A program made the translations under genes and the position numbers. A DNA stretch of 64,000 nt from Saururus chinensis. Its lineage: Eukaryota > Streptophyta > Magnoliopsida > Piperales > Saururaceae. The stretch is taken from positions 24,802,563 to 24,866,562 of the forward strand of contig CP141145.1 of NCBI GenBank assembly GCA_035235625.1, read 5' to 3'. The notes under the pieces were generated by a model that had not been told where the DNA came from, did not search any database, and saw nothing but the letters and a program-made list of their open reading frames with translations. Below, one piece after another: positions 12,118 to 55,100 of this stretch. Every line of letters starts with the position of its first letter. The stretch's first letter is position 1.

Positions 12118-13005
12118 TTTTATTTGTCCCAAGTAGTATACACTTTTGCGACAATTTTTTTGTTGTAAAAAAGGTAATAATTATATAGTAAACAAATATA
12201 ATTTAACATTTGCAACAAAATAAATTTGTAGCAAATAATTTGAATGTATTTATTATTTTTAAAAAGTATTAGCGACAAACCAAATTCATCACAAATAAAA
12301 TTAATATCTTTACGACAAATTGTATATGTAGCAGAAAGATTGGCATGTGTATATTTCTTATAAATATTTGCGACAAATCAAATTCATCGTAAATAATTGT
12401 AACATATTTGCAAGAAAATAAATTACATTTACGACAAGAGAAATTTGTTGCAAAAGAGTTTTAACATAACAAGTATTAGCTATTTAGGACAAATTTGAGT
12501 TGTCACATATACATTAGTGCATTAATTGCAATAGCTATACCCAATTATTTAGGCGGACGGGGTCGGATATTTAAAAATATACAACTTCAAGAGAGTTGTA
12601 TAAATTAATCTATATAAATTAATAATATAAAAAATATCTTAATATGATCGACATAAATCATTCACTTTCTGTTTTATTTCAATAAACTTAGATACCTTAA
12701 TATTAAAATAAATATCATTCATTGTCTTACAACCCATGAATCCAATACATTTGGCTAACTAAAAAATACCAAATAACTAGAATGAAATCAATATCAATGT
12801 AACTTTATCACAAAAGAAGTCACAAAATATGTATCATTTTCTTTCATTGCAAATTTTGATAATTCTTTTCAACTCCCCTATTCACCTATAAATATATAAG
12901 AATATAAAGTAAGTATGATGTAGTAAAGAATCATGGTTCAATTAATTTAGATTTATATAGATAGACATAAAATTAAGACTATAAATAAGCCTTCTACGTG
13001 AAGAT

Positions 13006-14181: not shown

Positions 14182-16330
14182 CACTACAACAAAAAGAGGT
14201 TGTTGCAACAAACACATTTGTGACAGAACGTTCATATTTGGTCGGAAAAATGTTTTTGTGACGAAAATTTTTTGTGACCTTTTGTCACAAGTAAGGTGTC
14301 ACAAAAAGTCATTGTGACAAATTTTTATTTGTCATAAATAATATATACTTTTGCGATGAATTTGTTTGTTGTAAAAAAATAATTATTATGTCGCAAACAA
14401 ATATAATTTTTTGAGTTAAAAATATTTAAAATATGTCTCAACCCATAATTACGTCGCAAAAGCATTGGCTTTTGCAACAAAACAAATTTGTCACAAATGA
14501 TTTTAACGTATTTGCGACAAACTGCATATGTTGCATAGGCTTGATATTTGATTGTTTTTAAAAAGCATTAGCTACAAACCAAATTCATCACAAATGATGT
14601 TAATGTATTCGCGACAAATTGTATGTGTCACAGAAAAATTGACATATGTATTTTTCTTATAAATATTTGCGACAAACCAAATTCTTCGCAAATGATTGTA
14701 ACACATTTGTAACAAAATAAATTGCATTTGTGAGAAGAGAAGTTTGTTTCAAAAAAGCTTTAACATAACAAAAGTTAGCTATTTGAGACAAATTCGAGTC
14801 ATCGCATATACATTAGTACATTAATTGCTATGGCTATACCCAATTATTTGGTCGGGCAGGGAGGATATTTAAAAATATATAAATTGAATAGAGTTGTATA
14901 AATTAATCTATATAAATTAATAATATAAAAGATATCATAATATAATCAACATAAATCATTCACTTTCTATTTTATTTCAATAAACTTGAATGCCTTAATA
15001 TTAAACTAAATATCATCCATTGTCTTACCAACCATAAATCCAATACATTTGGCTAACCAAAAAATACTAAATAACTAGAATGAAACCAATATTAATGTAA
15101 CTTTATCACAAAAGAAATCACAAAATATGTATCATTTTCTTTCATCGCAAGTTTTGATGATTCTTTTGAACACCCCTATTCACCCGTGAAATGTATAAGA
15201 ATATAAAGTATGCATGATCTATTAAAGAATCATGGTTCAATTAATTTGGATTTATATAGCTAGACATAGAATTAAGACTATAAATAAGCCTTCTGCGTGA
15301 AGATGCTTTATACCTAAACCGATGAACCTGATTGTATTGGTTGTTGCTCCATTAGTTTTAGAACCATCAACTCTGGATCAAGTTGTTTTGATCTAAGAGT
15401 TTGCATATCCATTTCTAAAGATTTTGCACGTTCTTCATACGTCTCTGCCCTCGTATTAGCATTCTTAATAACATCGATATCATCTTGAGAAAGGCTACTT
15501 GATGATATAGGCATCAAACCATGCCCGGGCCCATTAACATATCCTAACCTTGCACCAAGAATTTCATGGAATATATCATTCTTATTAGATTTTGTTATAG
15601 GCCCCTCTTGCTTAGATGCAGCCACTTTATGATTCATTTGTGCCTATGAAAAAATATCCACATAGTAAATTCCAAGATTATGTTAGAATTTTAATAACTA
15701 AACAACAAATATAATTCATAAATTTAATATTCATTACATTTAGAAGTTTACAATGCGATGTCACCCAACTCCTAGTTTTGTTTTTGGAAGTGTGTAGCTT
15801 TATAAAATTTTCTAAGTTAGGCTCCTCATCTTGCTCTTTTCTTGCCGATTAATTCAATTCATTCAAGTACAACAGAAAATTAGTACATTGTACAAAGTAA
15901 ACAAATTTAATAGTTGAACATACTTCATTATATGAATTTATGTAAAAGGTACCATCTCTGTGAGAACTCTGACAAATGACTGTGAACCAGCAGTGTAGTT
16001 CATAGATGACTTTCCACGATTATCTTTGTTTGTGTGGCTTCATAACTGAATAAAATAATTATAAATTATATTTCATACACTAATTCATTTAAAGAAAAAA
16101 ATTTGAATTCTAAATGACATCATACCTTGTAGTTGTCATCCTCAATTTTTTTGCACATTTCTATCCGCTCATCAAGAGAAATCCCATAGTAAATTGTTGA
16201 GGTGTCATACTTCTGATAATGTGCATGTGTTCTATTTTTGTGGGACCGAAATCGAGTAGTTAAGAATTTATTCACTGCCTTCTTAACTTGGTTATCCTCC
16301 ATGTTAATCTCAAATTTGGACTAAAAAAGT
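14182..16330 (-). mobile_element. CACTA element copy B, left end and transposase end
   Basis: A new CACTA terminus (CACTACAACAAAAAGAGG) begins at 14182, immediately after CAA in copy A. Copy A breaks exactly where copy B's own internal sequence would continue (GATCAA then GTTGTTTTGATC at 15,383), so B inserted into A. Subterminal TTTGCGACAAA and TTTGTCACAAA repeats fill 14.2-14.8 kb. The minus-strand Transposase_24-like gene begins at 15.3 kb. No matching TTTGTAGTG end followed by CAA was found, so the right border is unknown; the element may extend well past 16.3 kb. Confidence 0.7.
15314..16322 (-). CDS. CACTA transposon protein, Transposase_24 (Ptta/En-Spm) type
   Basis: Four consecutive exons are readable on the minus strand. 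About 16,322-16,125 encodes FEINMEDNQVKKAVNKFLTT and RSHKNRTHAHYQKY. About 16,043-15,955 gives SHTNKDNRGKSSMNYTAGSQ. About 15,849-15,745 gives ENFIKLHTSKNKTRSWVTSH. 15,641-15,314 gives AQMNHKVAASKQEG, then IFHEILGARLGYVNGPGHG and a coiled-coil tail (ETYEERAKSLEMDMQTLRSK). The order matches the plant Ptta/En-Spm protein family (PF03004): a lysine/arginine-rich start, an NR...GS box, a TH/HT block and the GARxGYVxGxGHG signature. These are accessory DNA-binding proteins of CACTA elements. The N-terminal exons are not identified. No stop breaks these exons, so this part may still be expressible. Confidence 0.72.
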
Positions 16331-20464: not shown

Positions 20465-21775
20465 CATTTTACCTTGATCAAATCTAATGATCACACAATA
20501 TACTGTTCGAAAAAAAAAACCTCCTACCAACTACTAGTCAACAGTTAGGCCCTATCAGTTAACTTTGTATTAACCATATAGACTAGTGCATATAGTCTCC
20601 TGCTTGCTAGAAATTAGATCATATCATTCAAATCGTGAGTAAAACTAAAGAGCTATATTATTCTTACTTAGCCTTCCAACAAAATGTACATAATCAATGA
20701 ATTACTTTGGATCTTTTATAATTTATCTAAGGCATGCATGCACACTAAGCAAAGAACACACAATATATGTTTCATAAAAGAACTTATATACACGCATCTT
20801 TTTTCTTCTTAAATATATGCCTAACTTGCTCAAATCTAATGACCACATAATGTATTTAGAAAAAAGAAGCCTCCTAACATCTACAAGTTAACAGTTAGGC
20901 AGTATCGGTTAACTTTGTTTTAACCACATAAACTAAGGTATATGATCTCCTGCTCACTAGATATCTAATCACATCATTCAAATCAAGAGTAAAAATAATG
21001 AGCTACATTCTTCTTACTAAGCCTACTAATGTAACATATATAATCAGTTAATTACTTTCCATCTATTATTATCTATTATAAACATGCACACTAAGCACCA
21101 AATAGACAAGATATGTTTGAAATTAAAACTTACATACACTCTTATTTATTTGCCCATATGTAAACCTACCTTGATCAAATCTAATGATTACACAATGTAC
21201 TTTGAAAAAAAAAACTTCCTAACATCTACGAGTCAACACTTAGGCCGATCAGTTAACTTTTTTTTAACTATATAAACTAGGGTATATGGTCTCCTGCTCA
21301 CTAAATATCTAATCACATCATTCAAATCAAGAGTAAAAATAATGAGCTACATTCTTCTTACTAAGCCTACCAACATAACATATATAATCAATTAATTAGT
21401 TAATTATTTTTCATCTATTATTATCTATTACAGGCATGCACACTAAGCACCAAACAGACAAAATAAGTTTGAAATTAAAACTTACATACACTCTTATTTA
21501 TCTGCCATATGTAAACCTACCTTGATAAAATCTAATGACTACATAATGTACTTTGAAAGAAATAAAGCCTCTTAACATCTACCAGTCAACAGTTAGGCCC
21601 TATCAGTTAACTTTGTTTTAACCATATAAACTAGGGTATATGGTTTCCTGTTTGTTAGATATTAGATCACATCATTCAAATCATGAGTAAAACTAATAAG
21701 CTATAATCTTCTTACTTAGCCTACCAACAAAACATATATAATCATTTAATTACTTTCCATCTATATGGTCACATA
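20465..21775. repeat. Four tandem copies of a ~350-bp unit
   Basis: The word AAATCTAATGA (A/T/C) followed by ACA(C/T)AATGTACTTTG recurs at about 20,478, 20,834, 21,175 and 21,525, i.e. every 341-356 bp. The units share AACAGTTAGGC..TATCAGTTAACTTTG, ACTAGGGTATATGGTCTCCT and TATATAATCA words, diverging by scattered substitutions and small indels. Non-coding. Confidence 0.85.
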
Positions 21776-31457: not shown

Positions 31458-33634
31458 CTACTGCAAGTTATCCTTCGCAACCAAAAGAAGGGGGGACCTC
31501 TTGTGTGTACTGAGACCAAACGTTTCATCCATATCCAACTCCTCCCCTTTACCCCCACCTGGCATCTCCCAATCAAACCTATACAAAAGACTTGCCAGGG
31601 CAAGCTCTATCGTTGACGTGGCAAGATGTATCCCCAGACAGCCCCGCCGGCCAGCGCCGAATGGAATTAGCTGAAAGTCATGGCCTCTGAAGTCTACGGC
31701 ACTAGATCCATTAGTGTTCACCATAAACCTTTCCGGCCAGAACTCCTCAGGTTCTTCCCATGATTTGGGGTCCCTTCCAATTGCCCAAGCATTAATAATC
31801 ACCCTAGTTCTTGCAGGAATGTGGTACCCTTGCAGTTGAACGTCTTGTGTGGACAGTCTGGGGACTAGGAGTGGGAGGGGTGGGTGCAGCCTTAGTGTTT
31901 CCTTTATCACAGCTTTTAAATAGTGGAACTGTTCAATATGAGCCTCAGTAACGTGATCTCTTCTTTTTAAGGCGTTTTTAATTTCTTCCTGCACCTTGTT
32001 CAGTACTCTTGGGTGTTTCATGAGCTCTGACATTACCCACAACATGGCAATATATACTGTGTCTGTTCCAGCTGCAAAATTGTCCTGGAAGTGAAAAAAA
32101 CAAAAAAAAATTCATGAAAACAAGAAGGATGTAGATTAGATTAAGACAACTGAATTCACATGGAATTAAGATTGATTAAGTACCAGGACTACGCCCTTGA
32201 TGTTATCTTTACTAAGAGGAAGACCCATCTCGCCATTCTTCTCAATATCAAGCAAAACATCAATAAAGTCCTTCCGGCCCTCATCAGCCAAAGGTCTAGC
32301 CGGGTCAATGTGTTCTTCAATAACCTTATCGAGAAACACATCCCACTCCTGGAAGTTCTTCTTTATTCTGGCATCCAGACCAATTAGACCTCCAATCCAC
32401 GCAAGCGAGGGAAAAAGGTCTCCTATGTGAGTTTTACCCAGCAGGACTATGAACTCTGCCAGCAGCTGGTGAAATCCTGTACCACTTCCCTTCTTATCCT
32501 CGTAGTACTTCTTCCCAAAGGCCACTCTGCTGAAAATGTTGTTGGTGGTAGAGATCAACAACTCGCCCAGGTTGATAGGCCCAGAAGATTTAGATATGTT
32601 CTCAATCATCAGGCTCACCTCTTCCTCTCTTACATCCCGAAACGATTCAACTCGCTTTGCACTCAGTAGATGGAGAACACAGATCATCCTCATCTGTCAC
32701 AATTAGGTCCAATCTAAATTTATAAGTTACTACCTAAAGATTTACAAATCTATATTACTAGCTCCATTTGGTAAAACGGTTTGTTCCTTATTAATAGCTT
32801 CATTTGGTTAAATTAAGTAGTTTAGCACTTGAAAATGAGTATTACGAGCTTATTTTTCCTTCTCTTATACGTGTGTTTCACTATTCAATAAAAACTTCTT
32901 TCTACTCAAATGCAACTATTAATATAAGACAGAAGAAATACTAATTTTTCGTTTCTTCCACCATCCAAACTATTGATCAACTAGGAAAAGTAATATAATT
33001 TTTTTTCGGGGACAAGAAAGTAGTAGAAGTTAGCGGCAATTTACTAAAGGCTCTTATTTTACTACTTAATCTCACTTGAAAAGTATTAAAATAATATTCT
33101 AATTGATGAAAGATTTGTAATATTATTTGTTAAGGAGAGCTAAAAAGACGTATAGTATATATGTAGAATAACGGACTTGTCTAATTTTATAATTTTCATG
33201 ACTGAGGCTCGGTTTCCAGCCCTACATTTGGTCAGTAAAATATTTTTCTTGAAGAACCCACGCAATACCTGGCGCCAATACTCGCCATATGGTGCAAAGG
33301 CTATGTCCTTGCCTCGGTACATGAGTTCATCAGTCATAATGGAAGTGGGTCTATCAGAGAAGACGAGATCGTGCGTCTTCAGAATCTCTCGCGCCGAGTC
33401 TTCGGTAGAGACGACGAGGTTAGGGATACTGCCGAAGTGAATGAGCATGAGAGGGCCATGTTTCTGAGACAGAGCCCTGAGAGAGCGGTGGGGGAGGGAG
33501 CCCAACTGGTGGAGGTTGCCGAGGATGGGCAGCTTGGCCGGTGAAGGTGGCTGCTGGCGCTTGCATTTCTTTGGTTTGAGAAGAAGGGTGAGGATCAGTA
33601 GAAGAGACGAGATGATTACAAAGTAAGGCATCAT
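31458..33634 (-). CDS. Cytochrome P450, CYP71A-like, copy 1
   Basis: Three exons on the minus strand (33,634-33,269; 32,693-32,184; 32,084-31,458) give 500 aa, the normal CYP71 length. Domains in order: ER membrane anchor ([19 protein letters not shown]), proline hinge ([19 protein letters not shown]), C-helix WRQxR across intron 1, I-helix AAGTDT, K-helix ETLR, PERF, and heme loop [30 protein letters not shown] is characteristic of CYP71A-type enzymes, which hydroxylate terpenoids, phenolics or nitrile precursors; the substrate cannot be read here. Intron 1 (575 bp, YWRQ|MRMIC) contains a Stowaway-like MITE; intron 2 (99 bp) lies just before DNFAAGTDT. Oddities: V replaces the usual T/S after AGTDT (also in copy 2). 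CLG replaces CPG/CAG at the heme cysteine and RMIC replaces RKIC in this copy only. No stops or frameshifts. Confidence 0.93.
32758..32940. mobile_element. Stowaway-like MITE in P450 copy 1, intron 1
   Basis: AGCTCCATTTGGTAAAA near one end and GCAACTATTAATATAAGACA at the other are inverted relatives of each other. The same element is at 51,183-51,370 in intron 1 of copy 2 and at 63,371-63,550. The 5' end is eroded here. Its presence in both P450 genes shows it was there before the duplication. Confidence 0.75.
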
Positions 33635-33850
33635 GGCACCTTGGCTTGCTTGTGGTCGTAATCTGAAAGGATGTAGGGAAGCAGATGTTAGAAAAGTCCA
33701 AGAGCTCTGACATTAATACTGCCAAAATGACATTAATGGATGCTCCTAAAACGGATTCAGATGGCACATGTTAAACCTGATTAGTTTTTTTTACCCTAAA
33801 ATTAGATTACAAAACTTTTTATTATAAGTTGTCCTTTATGTGGTCATTAG
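33635..33850 (-). promoter_or_regulatory. P450 copy 1 proximal promoter, cut by hAT insertion
   Basis: Only about 216 bp upstream of the start codon match copy 2 before the hAT element interrupts. The distal part of the ancestral promoter lies beyond the hAT element, from 36,391 on. I infer altered spacing of any distal cis-elements in copy 1 relative to copy 2; no individual binding site is assigned. Confidence 0.6.
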
Positions 33851-37388: not shown

Positions 37389-37397
37389 AATAAAATA

Positions 37398-37735
37398 GGG
37401 AAATTTATTAAAATAATAAAAAAAATAATTACCAAAATATACCACTTTGGGAAATATTTCCCAAAGTGGTGTTCGTTTTTGCCACGCTGGCCACAAGTGG
37501 CTTTTTTTTTATATTTTTTAAGTTGATTTCGTCGTTTAGAACGACGAAATTGGCTTGAATACGATTTCGTCGTTCTAAACGACGAAACCTTATATTACTT
37601 GACCCGGTTTTGTCGTTCAGAACAACGAAATCAACTTAAGTTGATTTCGTCGTTCTGAACGACGAAACTACCACATCTTATTTCGGGCTCGGTTGTGGGA
37701 GGACACTGATTTCGTTGTTCTAAACGACGAAATCA
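37398..37735 (+). repeat. MULE left terminal inverted repeat
   Basis: Contains a perfect 30-bp palindrome at 37,441-37,470 (ACCACTTTGGGAAAT and its complement), then five copies of a 22-24 bp palindrome with arms TTTCGTCGTT and AACGACGAAA (about 37,528, 37,565, 37,606, 37,645 and 37,711). The third and fifth have single changes (TTTTGTCGTT, TTTCGTTGTT). The nearly identical right copy is inverted. Confidence 0.95.
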
Positions 37736-37744
37736 TCGTCGTTA

Positions 37745-38491
37745 TATCCGCAACTCCGCTCCGCCTCCCGTCGCGTTCCAGTGTGTTTTTGCACCGCCGC
37801 TGCTGCCGACGTCCGGACGCTGCCAAACTCGCCACCACCATCCAGCCCGCCTCCGCCGACCTCAATCCACCGCCGCCGACTGCAGTCCGCCGCCGCCGAC
37901 CTCAGTCTGCCGCTGCCTTGGTCTAGCCCGCCGCTGCCCACGTCGAACCGCTCCCATTTCATTTTTTTGGTATGTGTTTTTCTATTTTTTTTTATTTACC
38001 TATTTTTTAATTGTTGTAATATATTTTTTATATGTTACATTGAAGAAATATAGTTTTTGTATATTACATTGAAAAAATTTAAAGTTTTAATGTCCTATCA
38101 TTTAGCCCTAATTTTAGAAGTATTGTTCTAAGTCATTGTGTGTGTTTTTTTGTTTAAGATTATTAAATTGAGATGGATTTTTTATTAATGAGTTTTTGTT
38201 TTTTAAGATGGCAAGTATCTCAAATTTTGGAAAATAAGGAGGATTTGAGTTTTTGAACATGTTTTTATATGATATGTGACATTGTATGCGTTATTACATT
38301 AAATGTCTAATTTTATTAATTAGAAAATTTACTCATTAATATAAAGTATTAATGATATGCTTATATACTTGGTAAAGTTATTAGTTTCTATGCGTATATA
38401 TTTTAAAAATATATTTGTTAGAGTAGATATTAGTATTAGTTTGCTTAATCTAATATTAATTTTATTTATTATTTATGAATTAATTGAATAG
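37745..38491 (+). promoter_or_regulatory. Probable transposase leader exon and leader intron
   Basis: 37,745-37,969 is strongly GC-rich (CCGCCGCCGAC-like triplets) in otherwise AT-rich DNA, ending at a G|GTATGT donor at 37,970. AT-rich DNA up to a TTGAATAG acceptor at 38,491 precedes the transposase ATG at 38,494. This looks like a 5'-UTR exon plus intron, with the promoter in or next to the TIR. Open frames across the GC block have no domain. Confidence 0.5.
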
Positions 38492-38493
38492 AA

Positions 38494-41339
38494 ATGGCAG
38501 AAGAAATGGTTAGTTTTTTCATTAACTACGACGGACGCATAGAAGGATTATTAATGAAGAAACCGTCTACATTTGATGAATTTGAGATGCACGTAGCAAG
38601 TAAGGTTGGGTTGGATCGAAGAAGATGGAAAATTACTATCAAATGTAATCTTCCGTCCTATGGATCGAGAATGATACTAATGAACATAAATAATGATTCA
38701 TCAATGGCTTTTATGTTTCACCACTCGCGTCACATAATTTCTTTCGAGTTATTTCTCGAAAAAGAGGCCCGAGTGACTAGTGGAAGGCGAAGTAGTTCAC
38801 ATAGGAGCTCTCACAGAAGCTCACAAAGGAGCTCGGATAGAAATGTGAACAATGAAAGTCAAATGCAAGTGCCGGTGGACGACGAAGAAGAGGGAAATTT
38901 ATCTATGACAGTAGCTTCAAATGAACGTCATAGGTCGTCTGCCCCTATTTACGATGGAAGTGGACCTACTTAGAGGTAAGGGTTGATTTAGTTGTGAATA
39001 CGCTTTCAATCTTATTATCCTTTAATGAAAATACGTTTAGCTAAATTTTGAGATTTTGTGTGTAATATGGAAGGTCTACGATGCATGCACACGAGCCATT
39101 TAGCATTCCAATGTCTCAAGGAGGTGCATGGTATGAAACTCAAAGTTCGATGGGCCTTCATTACCCCTACACGTATGTTGGTCATACCGATGCTGGACCA
39201 TCTAATCATAGGTGAAATATATATTTATAAATGAATTCAACTTTTTTAGGCTTACAAAATTTAATACATATGCGATGTTTATATGTAGGGGGGGATATGT
39301 CTACGGTGAAGATATTGATGAAAATGAGGATAATGAAGGTGAAGATAATATTGACGAAGTAAGTGGAGAAGATTCTGATATGAATGTAGAAGGGGTTAGA
39401 GGTGAAGAAAGTGCTCAACAGATGGTTGACGGCGAGGGGGATGATGCGGTAGACAATGTCATTGCTGGGAATGATATGAATGTAGATGATGAAGAGCCGC
39501 CGTACTATGAAGTGGAGCCACTTTATGCACACATCACAGATGAGGAGATAGATGCTGCAGTGAATTCTACAATGGATTTGGACCAACAAAATGAAGATAA
39601 GTTATACGTTGGCCGCATCTTTGAGAATAAAGAAGCATTCGTTACAGCCTTGCAGGAGTTTTCCATTCAAAATCATGTCGAATACAAGGTTGTACGAACA
39701 AATTCGGTGGAGTATACAGTGAAGTGCATTAATAGCACTTGCCCTTGGAGAGTGCATGGCTCAATCAAAAGGGGTGGTGGGTTCTTTAAATTGAAGATGT
39801 ACAAAGGTGACCACACATGTCGGAATGCCCAGCTTAGCACAGATCATAGGCAGTGCAGTGCCTCCTTTATTTCGAAGGTCATAATGCCCGCTATCCAAGC
39901 CGAATTAACTCTCACACCAGGGGATATTATTCAAAGAATGAAAGAGAAGTATCATGTTGACATATCTTATAAGAAAGCATGGGCAGCAAGGAATATGGCG
40001 ATCAAGGCCATTTATGGAGATTGGGTTGAATCGTATAAATTGTTGCCAATGTACCTAAGGGCGGTGCAAGAAGCCAATCCTGACACCTACTACCGCTTAG
40101 AGGATGATGTAGTACCTCGTGCAGATGGTGGCACTTGTAGGAGATTTAGACGGTTGTTTTGGGCCTTTGGGCCGTCTATAGCTGGGTTTCGACATTGCAT
40201 CCCTGTGATTGGCGTTGATGCCACTCACTTGTATGGCAGATATCCTGGTGCTCTTATGGCTGCAACGGCTACAAATTGAAATAATGGGTTATTTCCTCTT
40301 GCATTCGGGCTTGTCGGGAAGGAAGACGGAGACAATTGGAAATGATTTCTAATGGAATTGAGGGATCATGTACTGATGGGCATGACGAACATCGTCATTA
40401 TTTCAGATCGACATAAGGGGCTTCAGAAGGCAGTGCACGAGGTTCTTCGAGCCGGATTACCACCATCGTTATTGCATCCGTCACATAAAAGCAAATTTTA
40501 AGAAGGAGTTCAAAAATGATACACTGACGGACTTGATTGGGGCAGCAGCTTGTGCACTCACAGTAGAAAAGTTTGATGCTAAAATGGACTTGATTGGTCA
40601 AGAGAGTCCTAGGGCAAAACATCTCCTCTTAGGAGGAGAATTGCATCCTGCACAGTGGTCCCTTGCACACGGTGGTTTTATGACATTTGGCATGACGACT
40701 ACAAATATGGCTGAAAGTTTAAATAGCGTCTTGAAGGGGGCACGAGGGTTACCCATGCAGGCTTTAGTGTCAGCTATCTTTTATCGGCTCATAAAATTTT
40801 TTGTTAAACGATCTTCTGCCGCCTCTGCCATAGTCACCCCATATACTCCTAGAGTGGAAGCCATATTGAGAGAGCAAACAAGAAAAATTGGGGAGTATAT
40901 AGTTAATAGGATCAACAGGAGTCAGTACGAAGTGACATCAATTCGTGCCCGCAAGGTTATGGTAAATGCCATGCATACTTGTACATGCAACATCCCTCAG
41001 GTTTATGGTTATCCTTGCTCGCACCTTATCGCCGTGTGGGCAAAGCGACGGGAGCCAATCAATGCATCACTGTTTTACACATCTTCTACTTATAGAAATG
41101 TGTACTCTGCAGAATTTTATTCTCCTCGTGGTCGGGAGTATTGGGAGAGGGATATACCGTTTGTGTTATACCCACCGATAGCAACAAGGCAGCCCGGTCG
41201 CCCACGGTCTGTTCGCATTAGGAATACCATGGACCGCAGAACAATGGAAAGAGATGGTAGAGGAGGATATAAATGCGGGAGGTGTAAACAAAGTGGGCAT
41301 AATAGTAAATCATGTAGAAACCCTCCTGTTGATTGGTAA
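38494..41339 (+). pseudogene. MuDR-type transposase, inactivated
   Basis: Three coding exons: 38,494-38,975, 39,074-39,211 and 39,289-41,339, joined through AG|GT borders that keep frame. Exon 1 encodes a PB1-like N-terminal domain (MAEEMVSFFINYDGRIEGL) and a Ser/His/Arg-rich linker. Exon 3 has an acidic stretch, the MuDR zinc-binding region (VKCINSTCPWRVHGS..HTC), and the catalytic triad: D of PVIGVDATHL (40,217), D of IVIISDRHKGL (40,406) and E of TNMAESLNSV (40,713). A SWIM finger (CTCNIPQVYGYPCSH) and a C-terminal CCHC knuckle (CGRCKQSGHNSKSC) follow. Breaks: TAG at 38,971 (CAG expected), TGA at 40,277 and 40,343 (both TGG in the family), and one frameshift at about 40,440-40,457, after which DYHHRYCIRHIKANF continues in the next frame. 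Unspliced start choice: first ATG after the leader intron. Confidence 0.93.
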
Positions 41340-41435
41340 ACATATAATCAACCTCTGTATTTATTATATTTTTTTAGTTATGTACGCATGTATTCATTAC
41401 GATTAATGATATGATCTTCATCTTCCACAGATCAT

Positions 41436-44400
41436 ATGGATCATGCAGAGCCTTGTTACGGGCCAGGCCCGAGTGACGCTTCTTTACTCGTAGAGCAGGA
41501 GTCACATAGGTCTGCTGCTATTTGGAGAGGAGAGGTATGATAACTTTTTTTAAAATTTGTTTCATTGTTTTTTGGTTGATATAATACGACATGTTATAAT
41601 TTTAAAATTTATTATAGGACCCCGGGTGTCACAGCCCGGGTTTTTCAAACCATTTTCCGGTAAATTTCATAAAAAAATTTTGCAATATAACGGCTGTATT
41701 TTGTGAAAATTGACGAAAATCGAAACCTGTGAAAACATTTTATATTTCTCACATCATCAATTTAAAATCACACAACCTTAAACTTTCTTTTAAATCATCA
41801 AAACATACCGACTAAACACCCGGGTGTGAGATCAAACAAACACACATAAAAACACGAGTGCCATGGCCATGGGCTTAAATACACATCTCCCAGGCATAGC
41901 CGAGTACAAGTCCGATAACAGTCCCAATATAAACAGTCCATATACAAGTCCAAAATAATACATGCATAAGCTCTCAACTCGCCCAATACATGTATACTCA
42001 AAATTTGCATCAGATCGTGGCATAACTAAACAAAAGAAACTGAACAGTCAAAAAATCGACCTGAAGTCCGCAAGTCTGTCCTCTCCTCCAAAACTAAGTC
42101 CCGCCTACGAAGCTCTCGTGCTGGGACCCGCAGAAGTCACTGGAAGATCTGAAATTCAGTAGAGGGAAAGTGAGTATTTTCATACTCAGTAGAAAATACC
42201 TAGTAGGGGATTTCTAACAATGAACTTGTAAGCCTAAACGTAGTTGCCTTCATGAAGCATAACATGAAGCAACAAAACATGGCAATCAAAGTCTCTCAAA
42301 ATATGATGCTCACAACCACACACATATCACGAACTCATGTTCGTTCCATCTTTCCACACAATCCTACGCATATACCTACACTTACTGTCTTACTTAACTC
42401 TTACACTTACAGTCTTGATCTTACAATCATACTCAACACATACACTTACGATCGACACCTAGAGCTCATTATCAAACTAATAAGCTCCAACGTCGACGGA
42501 AAGGAATGCCACTGGGGCGTCACCTTAACCTCCGGAGAGTACTAGACGCCATGGACTTTTCCGAAGGTAAGGTACACCTATGCTCATGGGGCACAGGATC
42601 AAACAGGTAAGAGTAGTTCCATGATACTACTTACCTGAGCGCGCAAACATAAACGGCCACACATTAGGGTCATACAATTGCCCATACTTTAGGGTCTTAT
42701 AGTGCCAATGCCACTCTTGGGCAGAATTCATACAGTGCCCCTCTAGGGCAGAATCATAAGGTGCTCTCAATAGAGCATCAACCGTCTGGGCTTAATTACA
42801 GCACACAGACCAACTCCCGCAGGATACACACCATGGCTAGACAGGAGAAATGCTTAGCCGATTAATCACCGGCTAGCTCAACCACGGAACTTAATCCGTC
42901 AAACTACTAAAGTCTCAAACTCATAAGGTTAACATTTTAGTTTTTACTTAACATTCCAGTTTGAATTAAATACGTTACGCTCGAGTAATTTTCCTCTGAA
43001 ATCATACTATCATAAAGTCTCTCGATGAACTCAAAACTACGTCTGTTTTCCCCGAGAACCCTGAAGCTTTCCGCTCATGGCATCAAAGCCTGATCCAATC
43101 CAAACTAATCTCAGCCCATCAAGCGTATACATATCGATACCATCGATATAAACATTCATCATTCCGTATGTATTTGTCCATCCACACACATCTAACCAAA
43201 CCCTACTTACGATTACAGCACATCCATTATATGCATAAACCATTGCATACGTGTGCAGATAAATTATCCTACTAGCATGCAAATAATTACCCCGTAAACC
43301 TATACATCCATCATTTGTCAAGCCAATAACATGTCATTTAATTAGCATTAGCATAAGCTAATATCACACCATTACACGCGATATCCATAGCATTACGCGT
43401 TATGAAGCATGTAATTAAATTGGCCCTAGCATGCATTCTAACATACTAAGCACGCTACGATAGAATTACAAATTCAAAGCCCCCTACCTCGCTTTCCGGG
43501 CGTACGGTGTTGTCGGGGCGCACAACTGTAGCGGCGTCAGTGGCAACTTCGGCGAACCCAAGCGTCGCTTTCTATAAAACGAGCTGCCCCTGGGTGCGAA
43601 AGTGCCGCAAGCTTGCCGGGGTTTACACGATGAACTGGTCCGGTCCCGATTCAACACCCGTCGATCTCCGTGCCTCCCGTTGACGTGTACAAGAGGTGGT
43701 CGGGGGTGGACACTGCGCCCAAAAGGGCTGATATGCAAATCCAAATTTTGTGTGGTGTCTAGCTCCACCGTCAATCACCGGGCGTCGTGGCGAATCGCTG
43801 GAAGCCCAAATCGTACTGGGTAGAGGTCGACAATCGTGGTTCCGGAGGCCAAAACCCACATACAAGGGCTGGAGGGGCGTGATCTAAGGTAGAGAGGTGA
43901 GGAGGAGGAGAAACAAGGCGAGGGTGGCCAGCCACGGCCGCCGGCAAGGCCACACGACTGCTGGACAGCAAGGTTCTTGCTTCCCGGTGTGAGCTTTTGG
44001 GTGAAAAACAGGGGACGGTGGATGGGAGGAAGGTCGGAGAGGAGAAAGAAGGGCGTGGGAAGGAAGCCTCTGACCGGAGGAGGGGTGGAGAGGTGGTGGC
44101 CGGCCAGAAACGGAGCACGACGGTCACCAAACGAAGCCCCGACGCTCCAACGGCCAAAAGAGTGAAAACCGAGCCAAAATCCGGTAGCGCGAGGAGGAGC
44201 AAGGAGGTGACGGCGGAAGCTCTAGTCGGTACCACCGGACTTGTGGCGGCCGGGTGAAGCGAGATCCGGCAAGAAACAGCGGATTCCGACCAAGGAGGAG
44301 GCGCGACGAAGGGTCCGGAAAAGCCCTCATTTTTTCTTCCCGGACTGAAAATCTTACTGGAGTTCTGGAATGAATAGTGGTCGTGGCTGGAAAGCCACGA

Positions 44401-46972
44401 TCCACTATTCCTTTATAAGGTTTTAATTTAATCCATGTAAGCTTTTCAATATTTTTCACAACAGCCTCCCTGTTTTACACGTTGCCGCTCCCGTACATGT
44501 GCCACGCCACCTCTAACGCGCCCAAAAGCTAATACACCTCGGGCCCACCCTTTTCACACCGAAGCTTCCCTTCGCACGGCGAAGCTTTATTTTATGCACC
44601 AAAGCCTCGACTTACGTGCCAAAACGTATTTTAGGTGCAAAACCCCTTTTTGCGCGTCAAAACCTTCTCTTCACGCCAAAGGTTTAATTTACACGCAAAC
44701 CTCTCCACTTACTCAAGCTCCAAACGTAACACATGTACACATACATATACGGAACAAATGCAAATTAAATATAAGGGGCAACTTGATTTATTTTCCACAA
44801 AACAAGTAGAAACTGCGAAAAAAAAAAACCGGGTCATTACACCGGGTGCCTTGAGTGCACCGAACATTTTAAATACCTCCGTCATTGGCCTATAGATGAG
44901 CGTATATTACCTTATATCGAGCGAGCGGGATTCGGCCATTTCATTCATCTACAGTATGTTCGTCTCGATCGGCCTCTATTGACGGCTCTTGTTGAGAGAT
45001 GGAGGAGGGAGACACAGACGTTTCATTTGTCATATGGAGAGATGTCCATCACGCTCATGGATGTGGCAGTTCTATTAGGACTCCGTATTGATGGACGTCC
45101 GGTGACAGGCACGACAGGAGGAGCTCATATGGATATATTACTTAGACTTCTTGGTAGAGCTCCTCCTCCTACAGTGATGCGTGGTAGCCGAGTGAGCCTA
45201 CGATGGCTGTTACAGGAGTTTCGTGAGCTCCCAGCCGATGCTACAGAGATAGTTATCGAGCAGCATGCACGAGCCTATATATTGCATTTACTTGGAGCCA
45301 CTGTATTTGCGGATACCACGAGCAGCCACGTGCATGTTTCGTATCTCTCTCTCCTTCATGACTTTGACATGGCTGGCACTTATTCATGGGGCAGTGCTAC
45401 TCTCGCATTCTTATACCGAGAGTTAGGAAAGGCATGCCAGGCCATGACCTCGGGGATTGCGGGTTGTCTGACTCTTCTTCAGGTAAATAATTGTGTAACT
45501 TTACTTGGAATTTTAGTCACGTATAATTTTTTATTTCTAATATTTGTTATCACTATTTTATGACATAGTTATGGTCGTGGGAGCACTTACACATCGGCCG
45601 ACCAACTGCTGAGATGGGTCGCTTGGTCGAGGGTGCTCCATTAGGGGTGAGGTAGGTTGTATTTATGTTTACCACATTACTTTTTGTGCAACGTTTTATG
45701 AACATATGCTGAACTCATTTCTTAAATTTAACTCCTTAAGGTGGAATGTTCGGAAGAAGAGAACCGAAAATCCACAAGGAGTCCTCCGTTTATATAGAGG
45801 GGAGTTAGACCACTAGCGGCCATACCAGGTAATTTTATTGTCGTGTTGAACTTTTTTATATAATGATTTTAAAAAATTTTGTCGTTATTTAAACTAACTT
45901 ATCTTTATATATTATATAGATTATTTGGCAGTCGTACTCGGAGGACTTGTTCGTTGTGATACCTCCACTCTGCACTGACGGTCGAGAGGTGTGGCTTTCT
46001 CGAACCCCTCTCATATGTTATGAGATTATAGAGATGTATGTGCCAGATCGTGTAATGCTCTAGTTTAACCTGGAGCAAGGGGTCCCACCTTCTACTGTCG
46101 AGTTTGTCCATCGCATCACTCGACAGGGCCGCCATATTACCGACTGGGCTATATATCATGCGTCGTATATTGCTCGATGGGAGGATAGGAGATCCACTAT
46201 TATTAGAGGGGAGCTGGCTACGACATTGCGAGATGTTCGTAGTACTTATATGCACTGGTATTTACCGATTACACGGCGATATATTTTACCGTGCGATGAT
46301 GTAGAGGAGATGACATATCAGCCTAGGGGAGCATCTGAGGCAGCTCTAGTAAGTACAACTTTGTTAATTAAGGCATATATTATTTTCTTATTTTGTTTTA
46401 ATTATTTATCTAATATTTAATTTATTTTTTTATAGCTTCGTCAGCTTCGACATACTAATGCGTATTTGAGTGATGCACTTGTCACCTGTATTTCGCGCGA
46501 GGACTTAGCAGCAGCATGTGAGTCGGTGATTAGATCGTCTAATGATGTCCTTCGTAGCTTGCCACTACTTCATTCGGTGATCACGGATGTTCAATCATAT
46601 TATCCTGTCGACGAGGCCGCTCAGACGCAGCCGATGCACTCTTCATGCCCTGATATTCCATCATCATCAGCAGCATATAGCTCTTCTCCAGGTTCATCAT
46701 TTTCAGATACTACACATGTCACTCAGCCAGATCCGATTTTATATTATAGACGACATCGGCCAGCTCGTATTGTACCATCTATTACTTATGCTGAGCCGGA
46801 GCCCGAGTAGGAGCCTGACATGGAGTCACAGCCGGAGCCCCAGCCCCAGTCGGAGCCCGAGCCCCAGTTGGAGCCAGAGTTAGAGCCATAGCCAGAGGTA
46901 GATCATGAGGAGCTCGTACACCCCCGTCGAGGACGAGGGCGAGGGCGAGGACGAGGATGTAGGAGATTATGA
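41436..46972 (+). pseudogene. Plant mobile domain (PMD/MAIN-like) protein, inactivated
   Basis: Six exons follow from GT-AG borders: 41,436-41,534; 41,618-41,626 plus 44,847-45,482 (split by the solo LTR); 45,569-45,651; 45,741-45,828; 45,920-46,348; 46,436-46,972, about 627 codons. PMD signatures in order: IERAGFGHFIHL, LDRPLLTALVERWRRETQTF, GEMSITLMDVAVLLGL, DGRPVTG, LWSWEHLHIGRP, MYVPDRVM, DWAIYHASYIARWEDR and PYQIIWQSY. The tail is rich in EP and QP pairs and ends HPRRGRGRGRGRGC. PMD proteins (MAIN, MAIL1, and forms fused to PP7-like phosphatases) act in transposon silencing in Arabidopsis; related domains are known from plant transposons. In-frame stops at 45,814, 46,061, 46,808 and 46,889 are each explicable as CAG to TAG. 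It starts 96 bp after the transposase stop; an acceptor-like CTTCCACAG just precedes the ATG. Confidence 0.92.
41627..44841 (-). mobile_element. Solo LTR (gypsy-like) inside PMD exon 2
   Basis: On the plus strand it starts TGTCACAGCCCGGG and ends CCGGGTCATTACA, with CCGGG duplicated exactly at 41,622-41,626 and 44,842-44,846. Read on the minus strand it begins TGTAATGACCCGG, and a CTTATAAAGG TATA box lies around 44,415, so the LTR is in minus orientation. It is 3215 bp, belongs to the same family as 23,753-27,254, and has no internal region: the two-LTR element was lost by LTR-LTR recombination. Open frames inside (43.5-44.5 kb, GC-rich) are non-coding LTR sequence. Confidence 0.93.
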
Positions 46973-47183
46973 TATTACTTGTGATGTATTATATTTGTTA
47001 CTCGTATATGATGTACTTTACTTATATTTGTTATGGTGATATTCGTGATAGTGATATTTGTTATGGGTGGAATGAATGAAGTCGTGCATATTTATGTGTG
47101 TTTTGTGTTCTGTGTTTTGAATTGAATGAACAGGGACAGGTGATAAAATTAGTTTTAAATAGTAATTTTAAAAAAATTTAAGT

Positions 47184-47549
47184 TGATTTCGTCGTTCTAA
47201 ACGACGAAATCAGTGTCCTCCCACAACCGAGCCCGAAATAAGACAAGTGTGGTAGTTTCGTCGTTCAGAACGACGAAATCAGCTTAAGTTGATTTCGTCG
47301 TTCTGAACGACGAAACCGGGTCAAGTAATATAAGGTTTCGTCGTTTAGAACGACGAAATCGTATTCAAGCCAATTTCGTCGTTCTAAACGACGAAATCAA
47401 CTTAAAAAATATAAAAAAAAAAGCCACGCTGGTGCCAGCTGCTTGGCTGGCGCCAGCGTGGCAAAAACGAACACCACTTTGGGAAATATTTCCCAAAGTG
47501 GTATATTTTGGTAATTATTTTTTATTATTATTATTTTAATAAATTTCCC
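47184..47549 (-). repeat. MULE right terminal inverted repeat
   Basis: Inverted copy of the left repeat with five TTTCGTCGTT/AACGACGAAA palindromes (about 47,187-47,397) and the 30-bp palindrome at 47,473-47,502. It is about 28 bp longer because it keeps a fuller GCCACGCTGGTGCCAGC / GCTGGCGCCAGCGTGGC hairpin that has collapsed to GCCACGCTGGCCACAAGTGGC on the left. About 210 bp of AT-rich 3' flank separate it from the PMD stop. Confidence 0.94.
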
Positions 47550-47558
47550 AATAAAATA

Positions 47559-49845: not shown

Positions 49846-52143
49846 TTACTGCTGCAAGTGATCCTTGGCAACCAAAAGAAGGGGGGACCTCTTGTGTGTA
49901 GTGATACCAAACGTTTCATCCATATCCAACTCCTCCCCTTTACCCCCACCTGGCATCTCCCAATCAAACCTATGCAAAAGACTTGCCAGGGCAAGCTCTA
50001 TCGTTGACGTGGCAAAATGTATCCCCGGACAGCCCCGCCGGCCAGCGCCGAATGGAATTAGCTGAAAGTCATGGCCTCTGAAGTCTACGGCACTAGATCC
50101 ATTAGTGTTCACCATAAACCTTTCCGGCCAGAACTCCTCAGGTTCTTCCCATGATTTGGGGTCCCTTCCAATTGCCCAAGCATTAATAATCACCCTAGTT
50201 CTTGCAGGAATGTGGTACCCTTGCAGTTGAACGTCTTGTGTGGACAGTCTGGGGACTAGGAGTGGGAGGGGTGGGTGCAGCCTTAGTGTTTCCTTTATCA
50301 CAGCTTTTAAGTAGTGAAACTGTTCAATATGAGCCTCAGTAACGTGATCTCTTCTTTTTAAGGCGTTTCTAATTTCTTCCTGCACCTTGTTTAGTACTCT
50401 TGGGTGTTTCATGAGCTCTGACATTACCCACAACAAGGCAGTATGTACTGTATCTGTTCCAGCTGCAAAATTATCCTGGAAGAGAAAAAAACAAAAAACA
50501 AATCTTGAAAAGAAGAAGGACGTAGATTAGATTAAGACAACTGAATTCACATGGAATTAAGATTGATTAAGTACCAGGACTACGGCCTTGATGTTATCTC
50601 TACCAAGAGGAAGACCCATCTCGCCATTCTTCTCAATATCAAGCAAAACATCAATAAAGTCCTTCCGGCCCTCATCAGCCAAAGGTCTAGCCGGGTCAAT
50701 GTGTTCTTCAATAACCTTATCGAGAAACACATCCCACTCCTGGAAGTTCTTTTTTATTCTGGCATCCAGACCAATTAGACCTCCAATCCACGCAAGTGAG
50801 GGAAAAAGGTCTCCTATGTGAGTTGTACCCAGCAGGACTAGGAACTCTGCCAGCAGCTGGTGAAATCCTGCACCACTTCCCTTCTTATCCTCGTAGTACT
50901 TCTTCCCAAAGGCCACTCTGCTGATAATGTTGTTGGTGGTAGAGATCAACAACTCGCCCAGGTTGATGGGCCCAGAAGTTTTAGATATGTTCTCAATCAT
51001 CAGGCTCACTTCTTCCTCTCTTACATCCCGAAACGATTCAACTCGCTTTGGACTCAGTAGATGGAGAACACAGATCTTCCTCACCTGTTACAATTAGGTC
51101 CAATCTAAATTTAATTTATATGTTACTAGCTAAACTGATTCACTAATCTATATTATTACTATATGATACCTGATATGCAAAATACTCCTTTCTTAAATTA
51201 ATAGCTCCATTTGGTAAAAAAAATATATTCTATATTAGATCTATTTGGTTAAATTTAAGTAATTAAATACTTAAAAAAGAGTATCCATAAGATTATTTTT
51301 TCTTGTTTCATTATTTAATAAAAATTACTTTCTACTCAAATGCAGCTATTAATATAAGACCGAAGAAGTACTAATTTTTCGTTACTTCCACCATCTAAAC
51401 TATTGATCAACTAGGAAAAGTAATAGAATTTTTTTTCGGGGACAAGAAAGTAGTAGAAGTCAGTGGCAATTTGCTAAAGGCTCTTATTTGGATTCACAAG
51501 ACTACTTAATCTCACTTGAAAAGTATTAATTCCTTGCCTCACCAAATTAGAATTGCTCAGTCCCATAAAATCAGCAAATATCGGAGCCAATAATATTAAA
51601 AAAATATTCTAATTGATAAAAGATTTATAATGTTATTTGTTAAGGAGTGGAGTGCTAAAAAGACGTATAGTATATATGTAGAATAATGGACTTGTCTAAT
51701 TTTATAATTTTCATGACTGAGACTCGGTTTCCAGCCATACATATTGGTCAGGTGACCTAGAAGAACCCACGCAATACCTGGCGCCAGTACTCGCCATATG
51801 GTGCAAAGGCTATGTCCTTGCCTCGGTACATGAGTTCATCAGTCACAATGGAAGTGGGTCTATCAGAGAAGACGAGATCGTGCGTCTTCAGAATCTCTCG
51901 GGCCGAGTCTTCGGTAGAGACGACGAGGTTAGGGATACTGCCGAAGTGAATGAGCATGAGAGAGCCATGTTTCTGAGACAGAGCCCTGAGAGAGCGGTGG
52001 GGGAGGGAGCCCAACTGGTGGAGGTTGCCTAGGATGGGCAGCTTGGCCGGTGAAGGTGGCTGCTGGCGCTTGCATTTCTTTGGTTTGAGAAGAAGGGTGA
52101 GGATCAGTAGAAGAGACGAGATGATTACAAAGTAAGGCATCAT
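49846..52143 (-). CDS. Cytochrome P450, CYP71A-like, copy 2
   Basis: Exons 52,143-51,778, 51,084-50,575 and 50,475-49,846 give 501 aa with the same intron positions as copy 1 (intron 1, 693 bp; intron 2, 99 bp). By eye it differs from copy 1 at 2 of 122, 11 of 170 and 10 of 208 residues in the three exons, plus one extra C-terminal glutamine. Exon 2 starts with GTG (valine) after AACAG, giving WRQVRKIC, and the heme loop is canonical [10 protein letters not shown]. Other motifs: AAGTDT, ETLR, PERF and the N-terminal anchor. It acts at the ER with a P450 reductase; substrate unknown. The promoter (52,144 onward) is free of the hAT and MULE insertions seen in copy 1, and its residues fit the family consensus better. 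Confidence 0.94.
51183..51370. mobile_element. Stowaway-like MITE in P450 copy 2, intron 1
   Basis: TACTCCTTTCTTAAATTAAT at one end and the inverse of TACTTCTTCGGTCTTATATT at the other; AATAGCTCCATTTGG is shared with 63,371-63,550. Ends of the TACTCCYTC type with a TA target are typical of Tc1/mariner-derived Stowaway MITEs. Confidence 0.75.
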
Positions 52144-55100
52144 GGCTCCTTGGCTTGCTTGTGGTCGTAATCTGAAAGGATATTATAGAAGCAGATGTTA
52201 GAAAAGTCCAAGCTCTGACATTAATACTGCCAAAATGACATTAATGGATGCTCCCGAAACGGATTCAGATGGGACTTGTCAACCTGATTAGTTTTTTCAC
52301 CCTAAAATTAGATGACAAAACTCTTCGTTATAAGTTGTCCCCTTCATGGCCATTAGTTATCTAATTATTTGAACATAAAAATTGGTCAGTAAAATATTTT
52401 TGATTGGGATCATCAGCTGGTGGGAGTATCTAATTAAAAAATATGATTAAAAATTATATTAATATATTGCATTTTAACCAAAATATGTCAATTAGAAGAA
52501 AAATACTTTAACGATGTCAACATTTACTTTTTAAAATTCTACTTCATCCTTTTCATATTATTATTATTGATAAGTGGGGTAATAATATAAAAAAGATAAA
52601 ATAGAGTTTTGACGTTTAAATATTGAGGTCGCAATAATATAAATTTTAGAAAAATGTGTTAATCTAACACTTCCCAATTGTGATGGAAGTGGACTCTCAG
52701 TAGCTTTGAATCCTTCAACAACTAGAAGGTTTGAAATAATTTTTTTATATGGTCCCCACTGCCTATATATAGGTGTCATTAGACAACTTATGGTTATGGA
52801 ATACCGTATTAAATGATACCGATACGATATGGAGGTTGATACGCCCCCATATATATCTTTGATACGTATTGGCCATATCGTATGGATATGGCCAAAATAT
52901 ATCGATATTTTAATATTTTATTTTTTTTTTTTATTTTTAAATTTATTTATTAAAAAAAATATTTTTTTTAAAAAAAATATAATTCAAATTCAACATCTTC
53001 AAAGGTTTAAAAATAATAATAATTTTATTATATTAAAATTATTTTTTAAAAATTATATAAGATCAATATAGGTAGGTCTATATAGTTTACATATTTTTTT
53101 AAAATATAGTGCTGTATAATTATAAATTTACTTAAATATATACCATATGAGTTTCTCTATAATATTCATGTAATTTATATTAAATATCTTATTTAATTTT
53201 AAAATAAATTAATTTTAAAATACTTAATATGGAAATGAGAGAATAATAATTTATAGAGGAAAGAGAGAGTAAAGTGTATAGTTCTAAAATTAAAAAATTT
53301 TAGAACACTCATATTGATATGATCTTCTGTTGAATTATCATATTTTAAATAAAATATTTTAATAATATATTATTAATTATAATATTTTTTTATATACATC
53401 AAATAGTTTATGACCGTTTTAATATGTACTAAATATGTTATCAATGCGTACTTATATCTATAATTATTAATATTATTTATCATTCGTATTATTATTACCT
53501 TCCATATTTATATATAAATATTAATAATATTATATTTTGGCGCTTATTAAATTTAATATCCACGCCAAACATCTCCTTATGTGTAACGCAAGCAATCTAA
53601 ATGGTACTATCTTTGTCTTCGCTTAATAATTACAATAATAGCTTACGTAAGCACCTAAAATTATGTCTACCTCAATGAGGGGCCCACATAGCATAGGCAA
53701 AAAATAAACATATGTAAAATTAAAGTAGGTTAACGACCTAAATTAGTGATGTCATTTATTCCTACTCTAAAAAATGTCAATCATGGAGGATCACAGCGCA
53801 TAAATTATGTTGATGTTCTGATTTTTTTATTTATTATTTTTTATTTAAAGCGGAGAGTAGGGTTCTAAGCGGGTTAGGCCTTAGCTTGCCAAGGATAAAA
53901 CCGAACCCGGCCTAAGAATACATCTCAACTGAAAAAATGACTAGACCCAACCTGACTCTATATGTGGGCCCGTGCTAAACCACATGCTTTTAATTTTTTT
54001 TAATGTTATATTTTTAAAAAATAACTTTAGCCTTTGAGTGAGGTCTTAATAATAGGCCTTTAGTCTTTTAAGTTGATACCTTCATAGCAAAGAGAAATAT
54101 CTTTAAATATTTTGCCCTTCTTAAATAAGCAACTTTTCTCTTAAATTTTATTTTCCAAACGATGTAAGACTATCGCATATAGTAAAAAAAATTATTTTCT
54201 TTATTTTAGATTGTGCTAGCGGCCCTTCACGCTTTTTACTCTTGTGCCTTGGCCCGACCCTTTTTATAACGTGCTTGAACTTTTTAGGCCCAAACCCGTT
54301 ATTTTACAGGCCATGTTTGGCCAAGCTAACAAGTCAACCCATAAACTTGTAGTCCTAATGGATAGTAGCTATGTGACTAAAAACTTTATTAATAATTTTG
54401 GAAAAATTTATGAATAGGTAATTTGACTTAGATGTTTAAATTTCACTTTAGTCCATCTATTATATTTGTTTTCATATTTTGAAATTTCTTAAGGGGACAT
54501 TAATATTACAAGTTTGTCACAATCTAATTTAATATTTTTCTCTAATACCCCTCCTTGGTTTTATCTTGTCCTCGCCTGCCACCATGGCCGTGGCCAAAGC
54601 CATCGGCTGGCAAGAGCCTGCCATGTCTAGCTCTACTCAAGCCATGGCCAACCAGAGACAACCATGGCAGCAGCTTGGCCAGGCTATTGGCGCTAACGAT
54701 GGCTAGCGTCTACTGGCCTACTTTGGCCAATGGCCAAAGTAGCTATGGTTCCCGCACGTTTGATTTGGATTTTGGGGAACCCTTCTCCATCAAAAGAGCG
54801 CTAGTAAACCTACTTACCCTCTTTTTGAATCCATAGAAGCTGAAGAGTATTCTAGTCAACATTTAATTTTTGGAAGGATGGGCCATGGGTATGCTCACGA
54901 GTTCTTTCAGCTCTTTTGATCCACTTCTTTCACCCTTCTTTTCCACTTTTGTACTTCTTTTGCCCACCCCACTAGTAAAATATTCAATTTAATGAATATC
55001 CTTTGTAAATGAGAATTCCATATGCATTTGCAGGTTTAGCGGGGATGGTTCTATCACGTCCATTCCTTGGGTATGGGACAACCTCCCAATAATGCTTCTC

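Follow-up and report, generated by a model that had tools for sequence, protein, structure and literature searches.

What does a gene for a plant mobile domain (PMD) protein do beside the transposase of a DNA transposon? The question is raised by a 64,000-nucleotide stretch of the Saururus chinensis genome (assembly GCA_035235625.1, contig CP141145.1, positions 24,802,563 to 24,866,562; hereafter the window), in which a decayed Mutator-like element (MULE) with the outer ends GGGAAATTT...AAATTTCCC spans 37398-47549. An earlier description made from the letters alone (the sequence-only reading) had noticed the pair of genes and compared the PMD partner with the VANC proteins of VANDAL elements. 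The PMD gene is a regular part of this MULE family. At a probability of about 0.45, we propose a once-autonomous family with two genes, in which the PMD protein would fold like VANC21, read the palindromes of the terminal inverted repeats (TIRs) and counter silencing. PMD has been termed a domain of unknown function (PMC8616336), and its role in plant silencing would become directly testable if it had the DNA-binding fold of VANC21.

The PMD gene within the MULE family

The element belongs to the Mutator superfamily, with MuDR DNA-binding, DDE and SWIM domains, long TIRs and a 9-bp target-site duplication (TSD). Pfam recovered DBD_Tnp_Mut (1.4e-12) and SWIM (2.2e-5) on two transposase pieces of the window copy, and MULE (2.5e-19), DBD_Tnp_Mut (1.6e-10) and SWIM (4e-5) on another copy, L036, which bears out the MuDR-type DDE transposase claimed earlier. 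The TIRs, of ~370 bp each, are identical in 332/369 alignment columns, with 28 gap columns (~90%), and are thus as long as had been claimed. Furthermore, the joined flanks of the element match an uninterrupted paralogous site in the same window in 241/305 columns; the perfect TSD of the sequence-only reading, AATAAAATA on both sides, is therefore a real insertion footprint. The PMD gene begins 96 nt past the transposase TAA on the same strand, has GT-AG borders at all six exons in the window and matches Pfam PMD (3.4e-50 in 44877-45482); its position, exon number and EP-rich and RG-rich tail all stand as first described. Six full copies elsewhere in the genome measure 6.2-7.0 kb, with a perfect 9-bp TSD in five; GT-AG borders are present at all five PMD introns in four of them, while L034 lacks two donors and L036 one acceptor.

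At least 186 matches to PMD are present in the host assembly (516 Mb, 11 contigs), frequently as a pair within one copy; the best 117 of 2,738 first-look candidates were scored. Thirty loci chosen by best PMD score (L001-L030) comprise the window, L003 and 28 others, and transposase DNA adjoins the PMD in 27 of these 28; at L018, a TIR lies directly upstream of the PMD, with no transposase beside it. L003 is a PMD match devoid of DNA similarity to this family and represents another PMD lineage in the genome. To lessen the bias of this choice, 12 copies were chosen by TIR similarity (best 40 of 2,813 candidates scored), and for the second six, TIR matches near PMD places already listed were passed over. 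PMD DNA was found in 11 of the 12, one of them with the last ~570 bp only; the stretch of the twelfth, L048, ends inside the transposase, so PMD presence could not be judged there. Copies with the same TIRs but no PMD, which by the sequence-only reading would have refuted it, were thus absent among the 11 judged. Full-length transposase and PMD regions are present in seven of the 12 (L038, L039, L042 and L044-L047, with a gap in exon 1 of L039), L043 has a PMD with an internal deletion, and L040 has a full PMD and part of the transposase in its stretch. A perfect TSD was read in 6/10 TIR-chosen copies with both ends in the stretch. In the sampled copies the PMD gene sits inside the TIRs, unlike the stand-alone MAIN/MAIL host genes (PMD-C). 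The PMD in TIR-chosen copies and the transposase beside it at 27/28 loci therefore argue against a one-off capture, and the gene belongs to the element, as had been claimed.

When subfamilies A and B are compared, the ratio of nonsynonymous to synonymous divergence (dN/dS) is 0.13 for PMD exon 2 and 0.29 for PMD exon 5, from 100 pairs each, and 0.24 for the C-terminal half of the transposase, from 85 pairs; the choice of loci by PMD score flatters the PMD values. PMD is under purifying selection between the subfamilies. These data bear on the view that a host gene fragment was captured once, in the manner of a Pack-MULE, and has no role. MULEs capture genes, and deletion derivatives occur in this family: the PMD is alone in L018 and nearly alone in L041, which lost most of its transposase, and L037 is mostly transposase, with its PMD reduced to the last part; both L041 and L037 have perfect TSDs. 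Nevertheless, the spread of PMD across sampled copies and subfamilies, the exon borders common to copies, the dN/dS of 0.13 and the single gene models that combine PMD and MULE transposase domains in Aristolochia, Actinidia and Paspalum largely refute this view and render it very improbable. Pack-MULE capture was rejected, since the transposase is present and selection between subfamilies is purifying.

The two genes are separated by an intron-like spacer, 92-96 nt long in 37 copies, with both GT and AG in 32 of them. Its splicing would leave a TGA 4 nt upstream of the PMD ATG, so that a dicistronic transcript, and no fusion protein, is a testable option; a bicistronic transposase-PMD mRNA is possible from this arrangement. 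A transposase-PMD fusion by splicing was rejected, as the joined ends give TGA and the PMD lies in a different frame.

The sequence-only reading had regarded the arrangement as an undefined element class, which does not hold, as PMD in MULEs is already reported (PMC5418596, PMC6446971). In Dupeyron et al. 2019 (PMC6446971), PMD is tabulated for MULE-Solanaceae_1, VANDAL, MuDR-9_OS, MULE-Monocots, MDR, MUDRAVI2 and MUDR. Like groups described there, the present family has a 9-bp TSD, a SWIM transposase, long TIRs (in several groups) and PMD in many members; unlike some of them, in which PMD is often or mostly antisense, it has a separate six-exon gene 96 nt downstream on the transposase strand. 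It likewise resembles the MULE-linked PMD-C of Ikeda et al. 2017 (PMC5418596), where PMD is tied to MULE transposase and anti-silencing was already proposed as a speculation; in contrast to the fusion proteins mentioned there for several grasses and Amborella, it has two open reading frames (ORFs) in different frames, in a magnoliid genome.

TIR palindromes and the predicted fold of the PMD protein

The palindrome TTTCGTCGTTnnnAACGACGAAA occurs exactly eight times in the window element, always within the TIRs, and the remainder of the window has no unit at ≤3 mismatches. At ≤3 mismatches, 8-12 units were counted in 17 of 18 copies and five in L040, one end of which is outside its stretch. In subfamily B, most units read TTTCGTCCTT in place of TTTCGTCGTTnnnAACGACGAAA; the A and B palindromes are distinguished by GTCGTT and GTCCTT, respectively. 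The variable base is G (or A/T, the expected products of decay) in the window, 17 A, two C and four more A/C copies, and C in five B copies and one B2 copy, with no G among them; palindrome type agrees with PMD type in 30/30 copies. For L031-L047 the motif was counted over the whole stretch rather than the TIRs alone, and for L037 and L043, which lack PMD exon 2, the PMD type was taken from the remaining PMD DNA; L048 was uncounted and L002, which looks C-type, was left out for its decayed TIR. Wherever both ends of a copy were read, they are of one type (C-type in L001 and L019, G-type in L006 and L008), the left end of L019 being typed by one strict half-site among degenerate ones; the left TIRs of L005 and L012 lie outside their stretches.

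The motif switch requires one change on the PMD tree versus two on the transposase tree, which is no more than suggestive of a link to PMD rather than to the transposase. The transposase tree places L005, L012 and L019 with A and C (100/99.7), a grouping that the PMD data reject (approximately unbiased (AU) test p 9e-7, the group having been chosen after viewing the tree). Additionally, A and B differ by a dS of 0.62 in PMD exon 2 but of 0.255 in the transposase. From these conflicting trees and unequal dS, the two modules were probably exchanged between subfamilies.

The predicted model of the element PMD appears to match the DNA-binding region of VANC21 (PDB 9lnj), and the VANC-like shape of this model suggests that the partner may help the element to cope with host silencing. 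We infer that the PMD protein binds DNA at the TIRs and acts against silencing: gene 1 would supply a PB1, MuDR DNA-binding, DDE and SWIM transposase and gene 2, downstream on the transposase strand, a PMD protein with the predicted VANC21-like fold, which may recognize the array of palindromes within each TIR and counter host silencing there, or keep the TIRs accessible, whereby family copies could be transcribed and moved. As in VANDAL/VANC (PMC5735166), this would be a MULE accessory gene with a predicted fold match, and short repeated motifs in non-coding DNA differ between related elements; unlike VANDALs, in which TIRs are absent or short and degenerate as a rule, not universally, the family has ~370-bp TIRs that are 90% identical. 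The VANC analogy of the sequence-only reading gains from the predicted fold match and from a motif whose form follows PMD type; a possible anti-silencing role of MULE PMDs was already published (PMC5418596). No publication linking PMD to VANC structure or describing the palindrome switch was found in a search that was thin on subscription journals.

Several observations weigh against this proposal. The fold match comes from one aligner and one predicted model, and a Foldseek list for PMD (21 rows, best E 3.2) held neither VANC21 nor a useful PDB match. A PMD profile search of PDB sequences did not recover VANC21, no VANC was retrieved when PMD and DUF1985 served as queries against the PDB sequences, and PMD and VANC are unlinked in our sequence searches. 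DUF1985 is the domain named in VANC, and the VANC21 residues of 9lnj may not be its DUF1985 part; eight near-identical DUF1985 copies matched the PMD profile weakly (E 0.0012, probability 19%, 38 columns), and a smaller PMD alignment at a probability of 4% (E 0.012). In each of the two C-subfamily copies, a single C-type half-site stands among G-types, a common clade of all C-types is not rejected by the transposase data (AU p 0.19), and linkage could explain the motif-PMD match because the PMD adjoins the right TIR. Moreover, PMD exons mostly decay within subfamily A: in the TIR-chosen sample, dN/dS is 0.51, 0.53 and 0.64 in PMD exons 2, 5 and 6, 0.67 in transposase exon 3 and 2.09 in the tiny PMD exon 1, and in the six-copy sample it is 1.11 in PMD exon 5, with no synonymous change in PMD exon 1. 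Each of the 18 sampled copies has at least one scored exon that is no longer open. Decay affects 10-15% of cells at CpG sites versus 1-4% minor alleles elsewhere, as expected after methylation, which the copies thus seem to have undergone despite their PMD. As a separate observation, DUF1985 reading frames are abundant in the genome (at least 150 scored of 957 candidates), L049-L060 among them.

A wider proposal is that PMD as a whole is a VANC-type, sequence-specific DNA-binding domain, that MULE PMDs are widespread, ancestral anti-silencers that read TIR palindromes and co-evolve with them and that MAIN/MAIL1 were domesticated from them; we regard it as tentative and somewhat doubtful. A VANC21-like fold of PMD would raise the questions of whether PMDs bind TIR palindromes and whether MAIN/MAIL1 bind DNA likewise, and the two palindrome types with two PMD types constitute a ready-made specificity swap.

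The PB1-like N-terminus and PMD relatives

With two genes, the family resembles autonomous maize MuDR (mudrA/mudrB); to our knowledge, mudrB is not a PMD protein. Residues 1-90 form a confidently predicted core in the model of window exon 1 (block means 85-96), and the six best rows of this model against PDB are all PB1 domains (2bkf, E 6.8e-5). The Pfam PB1 score for this exon is only 0.093, and Pfam PB1 gave no match in L036; exon 1 of L036 matches protein P0001 at E 3e-11, and transposase exon 1 matches P0006 at E 0.009. A PB1-like start is common to MULE transposases and PMD proteins of several plants (P0001, P0006, P0022, P0016, P0198). A short 5-prime PB1 exon ahead of a MULE transposase is likewise known from MUSTANG B genes, which, unlike the present family, are domesticated host genes lacking TIRs, with no PMD mentioned in the text available of PMC3435246.

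Such N-termini, on transposase exon 1 as predicted and on both protein kinds (P0001, P0006, P0022), would suit a PMD that acts with the transposase at the TIRs as a transposition cofactor rather than in anti-silencing, and PB1 domains could then join both protein kinds in relatives. Almost every palindrome half-site in the element falls within the TIRs, and mudrB of maize MuDR is reported as apparently needed for integration (PMC6446971). However, the PMD reading frame of this family has no PB1, the annotated splice phases do not connect exon 1 to the PMD in frame, and the fold match points to an anti-silencing protein; we consider the cofactor role unlikely. A PB1-PMD isoform was rejected in this family on the same mismatch of phases.

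Aristolochia supplied the best-scoring relatives of both PMD (53% identity) and transposase (45%), among the best 8,000 word-sharing candidates scored for each. A tree built from 42 PMD rows, in which A. thaliana MAIN and MAIL1 were not included, unites the element PMD with 10 rows of Aristolochia (100/97) and places A. thaliana MAIL3 away from it; several of the Aristolochia gene models contain MULE transposase domains as well. These placements, together with a palindrome array and a switch with PMD type that would be left unexplained, speak against a decoy or poison, in which the element PMD would leave the TIRs unread and compete with or disturb host MAIN/MAIL1, which silence with PP7L, via shared PMD surfaces. 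In its favor, host PMD proteins silence transposons and transposon-encoded PMDs have been suggested as counter-silencers (PMC8616336, PMC5418596); the Camellia MAIN-LIKE protein P0290 and a Vitis protein lie on a long branch next to the element-Aristolochia clade, in a weakly supported position (80/50); and PMD exons of the genome match P0290 at 44-50% identity (73 matches, many at known places of this family). Such interference is, in our estimation, distinctly improbable. No host MAIN/MAIL gene was found with P0290 as the query among the best 73 of 2,400 candidates, part of the matches being checked.

The window copy and its surroundings

The window copy is dead and should make neither transposase nor PMD protein whole, because its transposase has a stop in exon 1 and two stops followed by frame loss in exon 3, its PMD has stops in exons 4, 5 and 6, and PMD exon 2 is interrupted by a solo long terminal repeat (LTR)-like insertion. 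The latter has its own 5-bp TSD, CCGGG (41622-41626 and 44842-44846), is unique to the window copy among the 30 PMD loci and is absent in the six full copies.

Table 1. Coordinates of the MULE, its genes and its insertion site in the window.
Feature	Position	Strand	Observation
Left 9-bp TSD AATAAAATA	37389-37397		sequence read
Left TIR	37398-37735	+	5 palindrome units TTTCGTCGTTnnnAACGACGAAA at ≤3 mismatches, 3 exact
Transposase exon 1	38494-38975	+	predicted PB1-fold domain; in-frame stop near end
Transposase exon 2	39074-39211	+	GT-AG borders
Transposase exon 3	39289-41336	+	DBD_Tnp_Mut and SWIM; MULE DDE core found in L036
Intron-like spacer, transposase to PMD	41336-41430	+	95 nt, GT...AG; sequence read
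Transposase stop TAA	41337-41339	+	overlaps GT donor of spacer
PMD exon 1	41436-41534	+	first ATG at 41436
PMD exon 2, part 5' of insertion	41618-41626	+	sequence read
Nested solo-LTR-like insertion	41627-44841		TG...CA, 3,215 bp; foreign to MULE
PMD exon 2, part 3' of insertion	44847-45482	+	Pfam PMD
PMD exon 3	45569-45651	+	exon borders
PMD exon 4	45741-45828	+	stop
PMD exon 5	45920-46348	+	stop
PMD exon 6	46436-46972	+	EP-rich and RG-rich tail; stops
Right TIR	47178-47549	-	5 exact palindrome units TTTCGTCGTTnnnAACGACGAAA
Right 9-bp TSD AATAAAATA	47550-47558		sequence read
Paralogous empty site in tandem duplication	53194-53494 (about)		joined-flank alignment

The uninterrupted second copy of the target site is supplied by a tandem duplication of P450-like ORFs: the minus-strand ORFs 31458-33712 and 49846-52056 are 93-98% identical in parts, and their resemblance to P450 was judged by eye only. 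Elsewhere in the window, a 245-nt unit occurs in four direct copies at 20470-21762, 63-84% identical to the reference copy and at ~350-nt spacing. Additionally, a two-copy repeat is present at 12249-12864 and 14548-15162 (85-92%), and the same repeat abuts the MULE copy L036 elsewhere in the genome.

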